IMG/VR virus record: IMGVR_UViG_3300028299_000023
Location: 1 to 28,103 of that record
Length of the DNA: 28,103 bases
Strand: one strand, 5' to 3'
Source: a virus
Below the pieces are notes generated by a model. It ran no database searches. It saw nothing but the letters and a program-made list of their open reading frames with translations, and was not told where the DNA came from. Below are positions 15,350-27,270 of this stretch, one piece after another (positions within the stretch are counted from its first letter, which is position 1; the number at the start of each line of letters is the position of its first letter). Position numbers and translations under genes: made by a program.

Positions 15350-16434
15350 CTATCCACTGTATCCGGCAGCTCGAGCTGTAAACTCCAACAACTGTTTCTT
15401 ATACTCAGTGTCGTTCTCAACGTCGAGCTTAATGCGTTCAAACAACTTTATTCGCTCTGCGCGAGTTAACGAAATGATCTCCTTACGCGTAAACCCTGTA
15501 TGCGTGGCAATCAAATACTCTTGCTCATCAGAACCGTATTCATAATCGTCCTGAAAGAGCAGAGCCGCTAACTCACTAAGGGGAAAAAAGATGAAGCACT
15601 CACCGGAGCTTTGTAAGGGACTTGGCACTCACCGCAAACAACCTCGGGGTTCAAATCAATCTGTGGCAGATTATTCAGCGCGTCACGGATAAGCATCCGA
15701 TCATTCGCCCACAATCCACCTTTATCAGCAAAGAACAAGTTGCCGGCTTTATGCGCTTCGAAATAATTCTGAGGCATGACGAATCCGTCTTTACTGCACT
15801 CCACTCTCTCAAGCCTGTCATTCACAAGCTTAACCTGAAAGTCAGTGATTCTTGACATACTGAAAGAACCCTGATTGCGGAGCTGGTCGCCAATCGTCGG
15901 CAACCCAAATTCAAATACATCAAATACTTTATCTTCCCAACCAAGCTCGGTCTGCCCTGCTTTGCTGGAATCCAACACACGCTGCCAACCCGTTTCGAGT
16001 TTCACTTTCAACGTCTTGATCACTTCTGTACTCCGAGAAACCGGAAGCGTTGAGAGATCGATGTCAACGATATTGATACCCGCATCGCCACGGCATCGTG
16101 GACAATGCGTCTTCTGTTTTTTGAGAATCGAGCCGAACGTCAAAATATGTCCGGCGACAAGAATAAGGCCAGCGTCGGGGAGCGGTATTTGGTTTACAAC
16201 GTCAGGTATATTCTTGCCACCGGATTCTTCAAAATCAAAACTCACACTCTGGTTGCCAAGCGTCTTGAGCAATCCAGACAACACGCTTGCAGTCCAGGAC
16301 GCAGGACGTTCACTCCGGAGCGTGTCATTGTGAATAATACGCTCAAGGAAACCACCGATTCGATTCAGCTCAAACGACCGAATTGTCTCACCTTGATATT
16401 CAAAACCTATGGGTAACTCATTCTTTAACGACAT
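15350..16434 (-). CDS. Tail assembly chaperone, -1 frameshift fusion product (361 aa)
   Basis: This is the product expected if ribosomes slip -1 on the heptamer at 15589-15583 inside the 61-bp overlap of the 288-aa and C-terminal reading frames. The second frame (15628-15350) has no ATG at all; its only start candidate in the overlap is a GTG with no usable Shine-Dalgarno, so it is best read as the extension of the first. In most tailed phages the two genes just before the tape measure make a short and a long chaperone (G and GT of lambda, E and E+E' of P2) by such slippage, and both coat the tape measure. The extension is about 75 residues, acidic and helical (FQDDYEYGSDEQEYL). Confidence 0.75.
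15568..16434 (-). CDS. Tail assembly chaperone, short form; T4 gp26-like (288 aa)
   Basis: The frame stays open to 16506, but the ATG at 16434 has AGAGGA six bases upstream and no good site exists higher, so I start there. The body resembles the T4 gp26-type baseplate family found upstream of tape-measure genes: GLPTIGDQLRNQGSFSMSRI, then DFQVKLVNDRLERVE. It carries two CxxC pairs (111-114, HCPRCRGD, and 267-270, VCGECQ), so a zinc site is likely. The short form ends AVSASSFFPLVS-like at a TAG 13 bases beyond the slippery site. It follows the tail tube gene and is co-transcribed with it. Confidence 0.8.
   Translation of the reverse strand: MSLKNELPIGFEYQGETIRSFELNRIGGFLERIIHNDTLRSERPASWTASVLSGLLKTLGNQSVSFDFEESGGKNIPDVVNQIPLPDAGLILVAGHILTFGSILKKQKTHCPRCRGDAGINIVDIDLSTLPVSRSTEVIKTLKVKLETGWQRVLDSSKAGQTELGWEDKVFDVFEFGLPTIGDQLRNQGSFSMSRITDFQVKLVNDRLERVECSKDGFVMPQNYFEAHKAGNLFFADKGGLWANDRMLIRDALNNLPQIDLNPEVVCGECQVPYKAPVSASSFFPLVS
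15583..15589 (-). other. Slippery heptamer T TTT TTC for -1 frameshift
   Basis: On the minus strand the codons TCT TTT TTC CCC of the upstream frame contain T TTT TTC, an X XXY YYZ site whose -1 shift places TTT TTT CCC in the downstream frame. The downstream frame is exactly -1 relative to the upstream one, and the upstream stop comes four codons later. No strong downstream stem was seen by eye. Confidence 0.7.
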
Positions 16435-16527: not shown

Positions 16528-16962
16528 TTATACCTCTTCCCAACCTTCGACTTGGGCAACAGCCTTTTGGTCTGATTTCGCAGAATCACCTTTGCCGTTC
16601 GTATCGAAGTCAGTCAGACTGTACTCATTGAAGAGACAGCCTGTAAACATGATCTTCATAATCTGAACGCCATTGCGCTTCTGAGTCATTACACCGTTGA
16701 GCTTCTTGCCTTTGACCGCTTCACTGAAGAATTTCGCGAACGCTTTGTCATTAGCAGAGCCGTCTCGAGTACGGACGAGAGTGATCGGACCGTGCTCGAC
16801 AATTCCATCGCTGAAACTGAGCTGAACGTTCGTGCCACCATCAACCGTCGTCATAAGACCGGTTTTCTTTGAAAGCCCCTGCAGCTTGTGGAAAGCAGGG
16901 GAAGTGAGGCCGGGTAACTCCATCAACCAGCCGTTTACGGGATACAAATCATTCTGTCCCAT
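16528..16962 (-). CDS. Tail tube protein, gp19-type (144 aa)
   Basis: This is a short gene right after the sheath, the usual order in contractile tails. It begins MGQNDLYPVNGWLMELPGL, with the NxFxV-like tube start, followed by GLSKKTGLMTTVDGGTNVQL and SDGIVEHGPITLVRTRDGSA, which fit the T4 gp19 / P2 FII tube family. The family forms stacked hexameric rings around the tape measure. AAGGAG precedes the ATG at 16962. Its length is normal for the family. The C-terminal 25 residues (DTNGKGDSAKSDQKAVAQVE) are polar and probably flexible. Confidence 0.9.
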   Translation of the reverse strand: MGQNDLYPVNGWLMELPGLTSPAFHKLQGLSKKTGLMTTVDGGTNVQLSFSDGIVEHGPITLVRTRDGSANDKAFAKFFSEAVKGKKLNGVMTQKRNGVQIMKIMFTGCLFNEYSLTDFDTNGKGDSAKSDQKAVAQVEGWEEV

Positions 16963-16975
16963 CGTAATCTACTCC

Positions 16976-17023
16976 TTAGCTAAAAATGTTAATCATCGTG
17001 AAATGTTGCACCGGTGCAACATT
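16976..17023 (-). promoter_or_regulatory. Perfect 22-bp palindrome between sheath and tube genes
   Basis: Bases 17002-17023 read AATGTTGCACC GGTGCAACATT, identical on both strands; its end overlaps the sheath stop codon. In RNA this makes a nine-base-pair stem with a CCGG loop. It is not followed by a U-run, so it is not a standard terminator. It may slow ribosomes, protect the downstream tube message, or mark a processing site. The function is unknown. Confidence 0.6.
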
Positions 17024-18515
17024 ATTTCTCTGTCACCTTGATATCGTCACGTGTCTGGTAAATGTTGATCGTGCCACCTTCAACACATTCCACAGGATGG
17101 AACGTGAAGTCGGCCTGCAGTTGACCATTATCTTCCATGTCAGCCGTGTTGTTTTCATCATCACATTTGACCTGAACGTTGTTGGCATAGCCACCCCGTC
17201 TGCGGAAAGCACCATTCTTCCAACAATCTTGAGCGAAAAACGTCAACGTATCAGTTACGCGACTGCGGGTATCATCATTGTTCGCCTCTTGTTCAACCCA
17301 CAGGAAGCTTGCTCGGAACGTTGTCTTGAACCAGTTGGTCATTCGACGAACGTGAACCGAATAATGCTTCCGAAGCGTGGAAAACGTACGCGATGTCCGA
17401 ACAATGAAACCTGCACCGGGAATGAACTGAATGGGATTGAATCCACCATCACGAATTGTAGCGACATCACTGTCACTGTAAGACGGGAATTCAAGCTCAT
17501 ACACATCCCGTAATGCAGTTGCCTCGCCTGCAGGGGCAATCCAAGGATAACCACCGCGTTCGATACATTTACGAATGTAGCCTGCACCAAGAGCGTGTCC
17601 AAGCATCGGCACCTGAATCACACCGCCAAATTCGCTATCGACTGTGCCCCAACCTCGGAACCCAGTGATGAACGACTTGGCTTTCAGCAACGGCTCATAC
17701 GTTGAAATCAATGTCGCCTGCACCATCGCCTGGGGAGATTGAATCGCACCAACGATGTCATTCCGGCCCTCAGCGTAGGTCTGCAAACTCTGTGCAGAAG
17801 CCAATGCGTGAAGATCGCAATTCATCAGGGTTGTGATTCCAAGACCGTCGAACAATGAATATGCTGCGACATAATTGCTATCTGTGATCGATGCAACACC
17901 TTCTACACCCGTCGCTAATGCGGCAGAAGCTGCAACATCTGGAACCGCGATACCTGCAGAGGCCAAAGCCACCTTCACATAGAACGACTTGCGGTTGATC
18001 GTGTCGACAACCGTATTGCTGTCAAGGTATTCGTGGATCTCTTTTATAACCGGAGCTGCATCACGAACGCTCTTGTATGACACATACACATCACGCTTGT
18101 CGGCGTCTGCGAGAGATGCTTTGATTTCCACATACGTGTTATTCCCGTCGAGGCCAGGGCTATCGTAGCCCAAAACACCAGACTTGAATATCCATGCCGG
18201 TGTAGTCGAAGCTGTGTTGAATGTCTTTGTCGCCGTCACTGCATCAGAAGCCACGACGCGTGTTCCAAGAATCTTTGCGCCGAACTCTTCACAGTTGCGG
18301 AACAACCCTCGGCGAATGTAGCCACCAAGGAAAGACGATGAATACTCTCCGAACACTTTCTTGTCCTCGTTCACGTTGTAAACGGGATACGCTACACCAA
18401 CAGGACCACGTCGGGACTTAAACGCAGCACCCATAGTGAAGATATCGCTCGGCACGACACGGATAGCATCTGCACTATCACGTTCATTTACGCTAATGCC
18501 TACGTTGTTGCTCAT
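17022..18515 (-). CDS. Contractile tail sheath protein (497 aa)
   Basis: The gene is preceded by AGGAGGTAGTT and starts at ATG 18515. The N-terminus (GISVNERDSADAIRVVPSDI, then MGAAFKSRRGPVGVAYPVYN) and the FGEYSSSFLGGYIRRGLFRN stretch near residue 60 are those of phage sheath proteins. The C-terminal domain (SRTFSTLRKHYSVHVRRM, then FAQDCWKNGAFRRRGGYANN) carries the conserved part that forms the inner sheath mesh. Length is typical. Placement between tail-completion genes and the tube is standard. It contracts around the tube to drive the spike through the host envelope. Confidence 0.95.
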   Translation of the reverse strand: MSNNVGISVNERDSADAIRVVPSDIFTMGAAFKSRRGPVGVAYPVYNVNEDKKVFGEYSSSFLGGYIRRGLFRNCEEFGAKILGTRVVASDAVTATKTFNTASTTPAWIFKSGVLGYDSPGLDGNNTYVEIKASLADADKRDVYVSYKSVRDAAPVIKEIHEYLDSNTVVDTINRKSFYVKVALASAGIAVPDVAASAALATGVEGVASITDSNYVAAYSLFDGLGITTLMNCDLHALASAQSLQTYAEGRNDIVGAIQSPQAMVQATLISTYEPLLKAKSFITGFRGWGTVDSEFGGVIQVPMLGHALGAGYIRKCIERGGYPWIAPAGEATALRDVYELEFPSYSDSDVATIRDGGFNPIQFIPGAGFIVRTSRTFSTLRKHYSVHVRRMTNWFKTTFRASFLWVEQEANNDDTRSRVTDTLTFFAQDCWKNGAFRRRGGYANNVQVKCDDENNTADMEDNGQLQADFTFHPVECVEGGTINIYQTRDDIKVTEK

Positions 18516-23192: not shown

Positions 23193-25232
23193 TTAGGCTG
23201 TTACCGTTACCAACGACATCTTGTCATTGATCGGCGTGCTCAACGCGTCTTCTTGGTAGATGTAGTACTCATCACCACCAACAAGCTGTGCATCGGAGTT
23301 ACGCACAGGATATGGACCTTTGAGAACCAACGGTTCCCAGATACGGAAGATGGTTGCATCCTTCTGTGAAAGCAGGATGTACGCATCATCCCATACATCT
23401 GAACCAAAGTGAGACAGACCGGCAGTGATGCCGTAGTTGCCTTCACCCAGCACTTGTCCGGCAGAGTACCCGGCACGAGCTCTTGCGGGTTCGTACGCTT
23501 CTGCTTGGGTCAAGTAGTTCGATGTCACTTCTGATGCCAAGATGAAGTCTGGTTTGTAACCGCGTGACTGACGATGGGAAGCGGCCTGATTCTGAACTTT
23601 GAACAACAGTTCATTCATATACTTCGACCACTCTTTCGTGCCAACACCACCGAGAGAAAAACGTATTTCGTTCGTGGCTTTCTTTCCGGTCACCAGGACA
23701 ACACCACTGTGCGCAACCGGTGAAGCTGCACCCGTTGCATCAACGAACTGGATCTTTCCGTTCAGACCGTCAACAACGTAGAACTTATCGCCAACAGGGA
23801 TGCTACTCACCTCGTACTCGTGAACAGCCACCGTGTCAATGGCGACAGACAATGTTTCACCAACAGAGATGGATGCACCAGAGACAACCGTGAACTCGGA
23901 TTTCGCAACGTCCACGGTCTCCGTGAACGAGAACGCTACCGATCCATAGGCGAGTGCAGAATTTCGCATATTGGCAAACACCATTTGCTGGAGCGACCGT
24001 TTCAGGTCGGCAATCAGATTGGCGATACCCTGGCTAATGCCTGTGATGTTCGCGTACCGTTTAGAGAGTGTAGCAAACTCATCGGAGAACTGTGCTTGGA
24101 GCTTGCTTGCCGTTGCATCGATGGGGAACCACTCTGTGGTCAATTTGCCTTTTGCCATCACACCAAATTCGGCAACCTTCAAATCGTTCTGGCGCCTTGT
24201 GGACGGCTTGTACGTTTTGCGTGTTCCGGCGATTCCACCTTCTCGGCGATACCGGGTGATGGGAATCTGATCGCGTTTCGCGTCCATCGGACCGAACAGG
24301 GTCAACCGCTCGATCATTTGATCGGCATACACCTCTGCGAGCACGATGCGAGAAATTGTGTACGGAATCTGAAAATCGGCTGGTGTTTGTGTCGCATCTT
24401 GCAATGCCACAATCATGTCAGCTTCTTTTTTCAGGTATGCGCCGTATGTTTTGTCAAACACACGTAACAGTTGCTGATTGATCGCGCTACGGTCTTTTCC
24501 AAGCACCACAGCTTCTTTCTTTGTGTTTATGAAACCAGTACCGACAATCTGATCGGCAATGATTTCAACACCCTTCAGGTGTTCACCCACGACAGTGATG
24601 TCCATGACGGAGGTTCCTTTCGCTTTGAGACCTTCCTGTGCTTGTTTTTCTTGGGCTACCCCAAGGTTATATAGTTTTACTGCATCTTGAATCGCAGCAT
24701 CCACCGCAGCGTTGTCAGCAAATGCACGACCCTTGAGAGAGTCTGTCATCACTGTCTTTGCATCTGCCGGCTGCTCCAATCTTGTAATCGAGTCAACAAG
24801 GTAGGTGCCGATTGCAGCGGTCTTTGCGACAAGATCAGCCTCTCTCTTGCTATTCTCGACAAACTCTGTGAGACGCCGTGCGGAGTCTGTGAGGACTGCC
24901 AGAGCCGCTTCACTTGCCTTCGTGTCAACAACCACTACGGCAGGTGCTTCTACCACCGGCACTACAACCTCCGGAACGACGGGAGCCGGCGTGATACTGT
25001 CGACAAGTGTTTTCAACTCGCCTGATAATTTCACAAGGTTCGCGTTTTTCTTTTCCGGATCGATGCTCGTGTCGGCGACAAGCGTTTCAACACCAGTCTT
25101 CAACGCACCGAACGAGTCAGTGATTGCCTGTGGCATTGTTGCAGTGGCCGCAGTCATCTGCTTTTGAATCGTGTCGACCAGAGCGGTAACGGATGCAACG
25201 AGCAGTTTATTTTGCTCAATCAATTTTTCCAT
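23193..25232 (-). CDS. Nested scaffold-capsid product from internal start (679 aa)
   Basis: Inside the 889-aa frame, ATG at 25232 (residue 211) has AGGAGG at 25246-25241, eight bases upstream, as strong as the first start. Translation from here yields scaffold and capsid without the protease, much like lambda C/Nu3 and other nested protease/scaffold genes. The bases before the site are A+T-rich as in an intergenic gap. A third, weaker site (AAAGGA nine bases before ATG 24605, residue 420) could make capsid with little scaffold. Proteomics would be needed to show which products exist. Confidence 0.65.
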   Translation of the reverse strand: MEKLIEQNKLLVASVTALVDTIQKQMTAATATMPQAITDSFGALKTGVETLVADTSIDPEKKNANLVKLSGELKTLVDSITPAPVVPEVVVPVVEAPAVVVVDTKASEAALAVLTDSARRLTEFVENSKREADLVAKTAAIGTYLVDSITRLEQPADAKTVMTDSLKGRAFADNAAVDAAIQDAVKLYNLGVAQEKQAQEGLKAKGTSVMDITVVGEHLKGVEIIADQIVGTGFINTKKEAVVLGKDRSAINQQLLRVFDKTYGAYLKKEADMIVALQDATQTPADFQIPYTISRIVLAEVYADQMIERLTLFGPMDAKRDQIPITRYRREGGIAGTRKTYKPSTRRQNDLKVAEFGVMAKGKLTTEWFPIDATASKLQAQFSDEFATLSKRYANITGISQGIANLIADLKRSLQQMVFANMRNSALAYGSVAFSFTETVDVAKSEFTVVSGASISVGETLSVAIDTVAVHEYEVSSIPVGDKFYVVDGLNGKIQFVDATGAASPVAHSGVVLVTGKKATNEIRFSLGGVGTKEWSKYMNELLFKVQNQAASHRQSRGYKPDFILASEVTSNYLTQAEAYEPARARAGYSAGQVLGEGNYGITAGLSHFGSDVWDDAYILLSQKDATIFRIWEPLVLKGPYPVRNSDAQLVGGDEYYIYQEDALSTPINDKMSLVTVTA

Positions 25233-25862
25233 ACTACTATCCTCCTGTAAAGTGTCTTCGATACGTTTGTATTTTAATATAGTACTAAGCTCGACCGTAT
25301 CGACTAGTCGGAGTCTAGTCCGCTCTCCCGCGGCTGCTGTCTCCAGATAACAAAAATCATAACCGAGGATCTTGACAATCTTGTCCACGACGATGTAGTA
25401 GTTGCCCCCTTCGTCTTCACGCACACTCTGAACACCAAGGGCACGTTGTGAAACTCCCAGTTCAACGCTCTCGTCAAAGAGCGTTTGAACCTTTCTTCCT
25501 TTTTCGGTGTCGATGAGCCTGATGTTGACAACCGTTTCACCCTTGTCGTTGAGATTCAATATCTCCGGAATACCTGCGAGATCATCTTCTTTACCGCGAG
25601 GGTCGGCGGCTGGATCCGGATGACCGAGATATGATGTCAGTTGCCACTTACCGGCCTGCCAATCTGTTACTGCGTCATTCTGGACGATGAAGGGAATGAT
25701 TCTATTGTTCCCGTTCAGAACGTTGGCAATAGAACCAACCGTCTGAAACCGGTATTTCTTGTCCGCCAATTTCTCAACGTTAATTTTTACGACGTCACTG
25801 ATAAACTCAACGGTCTTGCCGTCAAGTGCTCTCAGATGATCGGGCATCTTGTTGTGCGACAT
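23193..25862 (-). CDS. Prohead protease-scaffold-major capsid fusion protein (889 aa)
   Basis: This is one uninterrupted frame from ATG 25862 (AGGAGG nine bases upstream). Residues 1-200 resemble T4 gp21-type prohead serine protease (family S77): NGNNRIIPFIV near 50, a GHP with H81, and ELGVSQRALG with S138 as likely catalytic pair. Residues 211-420 are helical and Ala/Val/Pro-rich, scaffold-like (long helix 211-290; PAPVVPEVVVPVVEAP 292-307). Residues 430-889 are an HK97-fold major capsid protein (AINQQLLRVFDKTYGAYLKK, then PITRYRREGGIAGTRKTYKP, then MVFANMRNSALAYGS). Most phages keep these as separate genes. The L205-Q206-E207 triple at the join matches the L/I-x-E cleavage rule of the T4 protease, so self-processing is plausible. 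Confidence 0.9.
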   Translation of the reverse strand: MSHNKMPDHLRALDGKTVEFISDVVKINVEKLADKKYRFQTVGSIANVLNGNNRIIPFIVQNDAVTDWQAGKWQLTSYLGHPDPAADPRGKEDDLAGIPEILNLNDKGETVVNIRLIDTEKGRKVQTLFDESVELGVSQRALGVQSVREDEGGNYYIVVDKIVKILGYDFCYLETAAAGERTRLRLVDTVELSTILKYKRIEDTLQEDSSMEKLIEQNKLLVASVTALVDTIQKQMTAATATMPQAITDSFGALKTGVETLVADTSIDPEKKNANLVKLSGELKTLVDSITPAPVVPEVVVPVVEAPAVVVVDTKASEAALAVLTDSARRLTEFVENSKREADLVAKTAAIGTYLVDSITRLEQPADAKTVMTDSLKGRAFADNAAVDAAIQDAVKLYNLGVAQEKQAQEGLKAKGTSVMDITVVGEHLKGVEIIADQIVGTGFINTKKEAVVLGKDRSAINQQLLRVFDKTYGAYLKKEADMIVALQDATQTPADFQIPYTISRIVLAEVYADQMIERLTLFGPMDAKRDQIPITRYRREGGIAGTRKTYKPSTRRQNDLKVAEFGVMAKGKLTTEWFPIDATASKLQAQFSDEFATLSKRYANITGISQGIANLIADLKRSLQQMVFANMRNSALAYGSVAFSFTETVDVAKSEFTVVSGASISVGETLSVAIDTVAVHEYEVSSIPVGDKFYVVDGLNGKIQFVDATGAASPVAHSGVVLVTGKKATNEIRFSLGGVGTKEWSKYMNELLFKVQNQAASHRQSRGYKPDFILASEVTSNYLTQAEAYEPARARAGYSAGQVLGEGNYGITAGLSHFGSDVWDDAYILLSQKDATIFRIWEPLVLKGPYPVRNSDAQLVGGDEYYIYQEDALSTPINDKMSLVTVTA
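25241..25246 (-). promoter_or_regulatory. Strong internal ribosome-binding site (AGGAGG)
   Basis: AGGAGG is read on the minus strand eight bases before ATG 25232 inside the protease-capsid frame. The main start at 25862 has the same AGGAGG at 25877-25872, nine bases upstream. The upstream mRNA also contains TCGATAC and GTATCGA (25303-25297 and 25264-25258), which could pair and loop out the A+T-rich stretch between. Confidence 0.75.
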
Positions 25863-26802: not shown

Positions 26803-27270
26803 TTATTTTGTCAGTAAAATCTTTATCGTCCGGCCGAAGGGTTTTGCCCCATTCTGCCTGTCCGCCGTTTGTGTGGCGGACGGCGTTGCATTAAAGCGGA
26901 CAAAGTATATTCCGCTTGCCAGACCTGAACCATTGAACGTAGCATTGTAGTACCCGGCTTCTTTTACTTCATCAACTAACACGGCTACTTCTCGACCAAC
27001 CATGTCATATACCTTCAGGCTTACTATTCCAGCGGATGGAAGTTGATAACTAATGGTTGTGTTCGGATTAAACAGATTAGGATAGTTTTGATATAAATTG
27101 ATATTATTTGGAGAGTTACTATTATAGTCTTTTACATCGGTTAATTTCTTACAAGAATAAATGTAGATTTTACCGAAGGGATTATTATAATCGGGATATC
27201 CAGGTGCCAAGATAAACAATTCATCATATATCGATACAAGACGATTACAAATCGATTTCCAATATCAATC
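26803..27270 (-). pseudogene. 3' remnant of secreted FG-GAP-type protein with T9SS sorting domain
   Basis: The last about 90 residues are a type IX secretion C-terminal sorting domain: NLYQNYPNLFNPNTTISYQL, then AGIVSLKVYDMVGREVAVLV, then GLASGIYFVRFNA and a final KILLTK. Before it, ELFILAPGYPDYNNPFGKIY resembles the end of an FG-GAP repeat. The frame has no ATG and meets a TGA about 15 codons above the first usable TTG (27219). A shifted frame near 27250 reads DIGNRFVI, FG-GAP-like, so a frameshift plus 5' loss is likely. It is a leftover of a host surface protein, and the main clue to the host group. Confidence 0.75.

Follow-up and report, generated by a model that had tools for sequence, protein, structure and literature searches.

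Probable -1 programmed frameshifting in a gp26-like tail assembly chaperone gene of an IMG/VR virus record

Introduction

The tail assembly chaperone gene of phage lambda (gpG/gpGT) lies before the tape measure gene and gives a short and a long form by means of a -1 frame and a canonical heptamer near the stop codon, and the same source describes lambda-type -1 frameshifting in this gene as a widely conserved feature of long-tailed phages, T4 excepted (PMC5009743). According to the PRFect paper, which cites Vladimirov et al. 2022, some T4-like phages do not use frameshifting and have, in its place, one short and one fused long gene (PMC10274946). Chaperone-like roles were proposed for T4 gp26 and gp51 (PMC9024508), and in the annotation of phage Octan both gp26 and gp51 are tape measure protein assembly chaperones. 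For the Vandenendeviridae/Andersonviridae locus exemplified by phage Adele, a conserved -1 frameshift in a myovirus chaperone was proposed from sequence, and polyT signals were described as known in T4-like TAC-N genes (PMC12846349).

The mechanism is already known in tailed phages, and the gene analysed here adds a new case, in a gp26-like chaperone. The locus shares with lambda gpG/gpGT the position before the tape measure gene, the -1 frame, the heptamer near the stop and the predicted pair of forms, but its frame-0 protein appears gp26-like, is about 290 aa long, carries Cys pairs and belongs to a contractile-tail phage; no match to lambda-type chaperone families was found in the libraries searched. 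With T4 it has in common a frame-0 protein that seems distantly related to gp26 and, in the family, a -1 domain resembling the C-terminal end of gp51, whereas T4 has two separate genes and no -1 domain after gp26. The Adele locus resembles ours, by description, in being a chaperone locus with a proposed -1 frameshift; its motif is GTTTTT, not a canonical heptamer (PMC12846349). In the literature searched, no paper was found that treats the gene in these phages or describes heptamers being exchanged at a single site, and a term search of the paper on the Maribacter phages (PMC8776804) returned neither frameshift nor chaperone.

Gene order and the junction in the window

The window, that is, the whole stretch analysed, is a 28-kb virus record (28,103 nt) in which tail sheath, tail tube, a 288-aa gene, a -1 frame and the tape measure gene follow one another on the minus strand (Table 1). 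The 288-aa gene, with an upstream SD-like pairing of -6.4 kcal/mol, sits between the tail tube and tape measure genes, and the -1 frame stays open to just before the latter.

Table 1. Positions of the features at and around the junction in the window
Feature	Position	Strand	Remarks
Tail sheath	17022..18515	-	Context
Tail tube protein, gp19-like	16528..16962	-	PF06841, 23.4 bits, below cut-off 28.2
Frame-0 gene, 288 aa; putative short tail assembly chaperone (TAC-N), gp26-like	15568..16434	-	
GTG, sole start-like codon of the -1 frame upstream of the heptamer	15626..15628	-	Rival start
GGTGA, weakly SD-like, with its end 10 nt upstream of the heptamer	15600..15604	-	Possible stimulator
Slippery heptamer T TTT TTC, X XXY YYZ phase	15583..15589	-	Codons 283-284
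Second heptamer T TTC CCC, in phase, overlapping the first	15580..15586	-	Codons 284-285
Predicted stem starting ~10 nt after the heptamer	15509..15573	-	Possible stimulator
Putative TAC-C, -1 frame after the slip, long-form C-terminal domain	15350..15583	-	77 codons + stop
Tape measure protein, 762 aa	13052..15340	-	Start 15340; phrog_1272, PF10145

Frame 0 ended in the codons GCT TCA TCT TTT TTC CCC TTA GTG AGT TAG, with the stop at 15570-15568. Four sense codons separated T TTT TTC from this stop, and the two overlapping heptamers, starting in codons 283 and 284, were the only in-phase X XXY YYZ heptamers in the 288-codon gene (n = 2). A -1 slip at either of them would give the same fusion, with the junction SSFFPLSEL and a length of 284 + 77 = 361 aa. 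The open -1 frame ran from 15628 to 15350 and overlapped frame 0 by 61 nt. Inspection of the sequence and the ORF list confirmed the original prediction in the position and phase of T TTT TTC four codons before the stop, in the -1 relation of the second frame and in its 61-base overlap, coordinates included. It had further held that this frame had no ATG and no usable start. The former was borne out, as ATG was absent from the -1 frame both upstream of and after the heptamer; the latter was overstated, since a GTG exists at 15628.

Among 22 window genes chosen from the ORF list, 12 in-phase heptamers were counted in 7680 codons, and only the 288-aa gene had any near its end (at most 7 codons after the heptamer, stop included). 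When synonymous codons were resampled with the protein kept fixed, a heptamer arose at the end of the window gene in 44% of trials, because Ser-Ser-Phe-Phe-Pro is readily coded in a slippery form. The window heptamer alone is therefore not beyond chance; it is suggestive when taken by itself, and the weight rests on the relatives.

Three further features of the window were observed away from the junction. Near the record end (26803-27219, minus strand) there was a fragment with a sorting domain of type IX secretion (PF18962, 32.1 bits; TIGR04183, 35.3 bits), which hints at a Bacteroidota-type host or at host DNA at a provirus edge. The N-terminal part of an 889-aa protein (23193-25862, minus strand) matched head maturation proteases (phrog_207), and the remaining ~700 residues had no PHROG match at E<=0.01; the protein is perhaps a fusion. 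A Mu F-like head morphogenesis protein (PF04233; 20957-22627, minus strand) showed in its C-terminal part a weak zinc metallopeptidase match below the cut-off (PF15890, 17.2 bits).

Putative slip sites in the nearer relatives

Homologues at about 25-31% identity to the window gene were found in Bacteroides phage BS162P1, in MT835482 and in two IMG/VR contigs that contain the junction (L006 and L008), and the Maribacter phages Colly and Molly were found via L008. Single-sequence queries of viral_contigs with P0001 and with the MT835482 protein gave no relative. Left out of the junction counts were two contigs that end inside the gene (L007, L013) and three that repeat L008 or L006 (L010-L012). 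Matches of the second frame in Roseobacter (L004, L005; E 0.3, different gene context) and a non-phage locus (L009) were rejected as unrelated.

At the same place and in phase, BS162P1 and MT835482 had T TTT TTC, L006 had T TTT TTT, L008 had G GGA AAC and Colly/Molly had G GGT TTT; the T run at the slip site was T8 in L006 and T6C4 in the window. Beyond the heptamer, the -1 frame stayed open in all these relatives, with a length of 89-100 codons if the heptamer is taken as its start. The Phe-Phe peptide was lost in L008 and Colly, which had another canonical heptamer at the slip site instead. The letters of the heptamer thus change while the site is kept, and a conserved Phe-Phe peptide therefore cannot explain L008 and Colly. 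Homology of the second frame started at or after the slip site and not upstream of it. The window TAC-C aligned only loosely with the other TAC-C domains and had no significant family match in the profile libraries searched.

The first ATG of the -1 frame occurred 156 nt in for L008 and 93 nt in for Colly. An ATG in this frame was present 12 nt past the start of the heptamer in BS162P1, MT835482 and L006, as well as in PhiW-14 and phi-ST2 of the wider family, and a separate start at this ATG is possible in the first three as well. As for existing annotation, the second half is a separate hypothetical gene in BS162P1. For Colly_1 and Molly_1 (L014 4798-5067, L015 same region), the deposited annotation of this half covers just the 58 aa read from an internal ATG; in both, however, the open -1 frame already extends from G GGT TTT, and a strong stem comes just after this site.

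Likeness to gp26

The window protein scored 12.4 bits against PF12322 (T4_baseplate, gp26) and failed the cut-off of 24.5 bits. Of its relatives, L006 passed with 27.6 bits, L008 (22.5), MT835482 (18.2) and BS162P1 (15.1) stayed below, and the Maribacter proteins had no match to PF12322. Direct HMM matches of the 288-aa protein were weak. By hhalign against eight gp26-like proteins, a probability of 87% was obtained with a five-sequence set and 75% with a six-sequence set; comparison with T4 gp26 alone (1.7%) was uninformative, and so was that with T4 gp51 alone. A Foldseek search of viral structures gave six matches at E<=1e-3, T4-like baseplate hub assembly proteins among them, with a low-confidence model (mean pLDDT 57). 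The gp26 likeness claimed in the original prediction is backed by the L006 score, the profile-profile comparison and these predicted-fold matches, and the window protein is therefore called gp26-like, not a member of PF12322. It contains two Cys-x-x-Cys pairs (residues 111-114 and 267-270); Cys 111, 114, 267 and 270 were conserved in five of six aligned proteins and lost in Maribacter. These pairs are not proof of zinc.

Survey of gp26-like junctions

For the wider family, 15 of 1618 matching gp26-like records were taken together with T4. In-phase heptamers were T TTT TTT in Melnitz-1 and T TTT TTC in ZPAH1, S-RIM8, PhiW-14, phi-ST2 and VH1_2019; in all six no more than one sense codon lay between heptamer and stop, and a -1 domain followed. 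Altogether, a -1 chaperone C-terminal domain was present at 17 of 23 gp26-like junctions, and at 13 of those 17 loci the end of the gene contained an X XXY YYZ heptamer in phase (at most 6 codons after the heptamer, stop included). Conservation of the heptamer across related phages, which had been suggested as a check on the prediction, was thus found, with letters exchanged among canonical heptamers. The 13 loci amount to about 11 lineages, as Colly/Molly are near relatives and phi-ST2/VH1_2019 likewise, and the rest of the 13 genes held 8 in-phase heptamers in 3481 codons. The synonymous nulls were 0.44 for the window, 0.34 for BS162P1, 0.085 for L008, 0.13 for Colly, 0.36 for S-RIM8, 0.46 for ZPAH1, 0.105 for PhiW-14 and 0.14 for phi-ST2; the product of these eight lineage nulls was ~4e-6 under an assumed independence of lineages that is only roughly true. 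Taken together, the comparative evidence from the relatives is strong.

The 23 junctions were grouped after inspection, and the Ackermannviridae (0/4 with heptamer) were set apart for that reason. Their members 3M, VAP7, T765 and 241 kept the open -1 domain and had no canonical heptamer (4 of the 17 loci); they may use a non-standard slip or a separate start. Only (G/A)TTTTC or GTTTTTC-like runs were seen at these gene ends (L020, L022, L029, L031).

In the phages with a separate gp51 (T4, Octan, Phi1, avDM5, Aes508 and Miro), no -1-frame domain was found (0/6). The sole heptamer among them (1/6) was an unrelated T TTA AAG near the gene end of Miro, which was not accompanied by a -1 domain; the gp51-like neighbour in avDM5 carries just the label hypothetical. 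In T4 gp26 the terminal Phe-Phe is encoded by swapped codons, TTC TTT, which do not fit X XXY YYZ. The C-terminal part of T4 gp51 aligned with the -1 domains, as expected of a ready-made fusion, and this agrees with gp26 and gp51 being the T4-like short/fused pair, which we take them to be.

No downstream structure or upstream SD-like element was found to be common to the 11 sites tested. The GGTGA element of the window was not significant, 22% of gene windows being equally strong, and the predicted stem had a z of about -3.1 in a 70-nt window and 0.3 in a 50-nt window and was not conserved. Besides the window, clearly low folding z values were obtained only for Colly (about -5 and -4.5), phi-ST2 (-4.7, 70 nt), PhiW-14 (-2.6, 70 nt), Melnitz (-2.4, 70 nt) and S-RIM8 (-2.1, 50 nt), with differing distances and shapes; the strong stem of Colly (z about -5) begins ~5 nt after the heptamer.

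Discussion

Gene order, phase, open frames and their conservation across the relatives were observed directly. As judged from these sequences, the 288-aa gene very probably encodes a gp26-like tail assembly chaperone of the gp26/gp51 type that is made in short and long forms by -1 programmed frameshifting. The original prediction had proposed such a frameshift in a tail assembly chaperone, and it gains support from the slip site and the open -1 frame conserved in distant relatives. Several points speak against frameshifting, namely the null of 0.44, the GTG at 15628, the lack of a conserved stimulator, the 4 of 17 loci with no canonical heptamer, the ATG just after the heptamer in five relatives and the loosely alignable window TAC-C.

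Some of these points would fit two separate proteins, with the second started at GTG 15628 by translational coupling and the heptamer reflecting a conserved Phe-Phe end. The GTG is in frame directly after a TGA, and the 20 nt upstream pair with the anti-SD at -7.1 kcal/mol, a value that lies between the 5% and 10% quantiles for random 20-mers from the window; the window null and the ATG of the five relatives point the same way. However, GAGG lies ~13 nt from the GTG by eye, beyond the usual spacing, homology of the second frame does not reach upstream of the slip site, and L008 and Colly have lost the Phe-Phe peptide yet carry different canonical heptamers. An ATG-started second gene in relatives, which the original prediction had counted against frameshifting, does occur in five of them, but this is not refuting, because those phages keep the heptamer and five others (L008, Colly, Melnitz, ZPAH1 and S-RIM8) have no -1-frame ATG until 63-156 nt in. 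Separate proteins are therefore considered improbable.

The T/C run itself could be suspected as well. RNA polymerase rather than the ribosome might slip on it and so make the longer product, for which T6C4 in the window and T8 in L006 would be suitable templates. But G GGA AAC and G GGT TTT at the same position are standard tandem tRNA slip sites, and their runs are too short for polymerase slippage, which makes this reading highly improbable. An error of sequencing or assembly within T6C4 that split one in-frame gene would be in keeping with a homopolymer in a fragmentary virus record; it can be given hardly any probability, as the same -1 arrangement is found in independently sequenced phages, including two lineages without the T6 run.

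With -1 programmed frameshifting as the preferred explanation, we infer slippage itself as a minority event. Most ribosomes would stop at 15568 and release the 288-aa short form, while a minority would shift back by one base at T TTT TTC or T TTC CCC and read to 15350, giving the 361-aa fusion. By analogy with lambda gpG/gpGT, the presumed chaperone function would be divided between the two, such that the short form may serve as a coat for the tape measure protein, and the long form may recruit tail tube subunits through its extra domain.

We consider it somewhat more likely than not that -1 frameshifting is ancestral in the gp26/gp51 family across very different hosts. The heptamer would have been freely replaced (T TTT TTC, G GGA AAC, G GGT TTT) with the site kept, and the T4 branch would have dropped recoding by way of a separate fused gene (gp51), leaving a non-slippery Phe-Phe relic. 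For a gene pair that lacks annotation in a little-known group of phages and in public genomes, the present analysis proposes a function and a decoding mechanism. The various heptamers at one position also form a natural series of putative slip sites which, contrasted with the T4 branch, may tell how recoding is kept, exchanged and lost.
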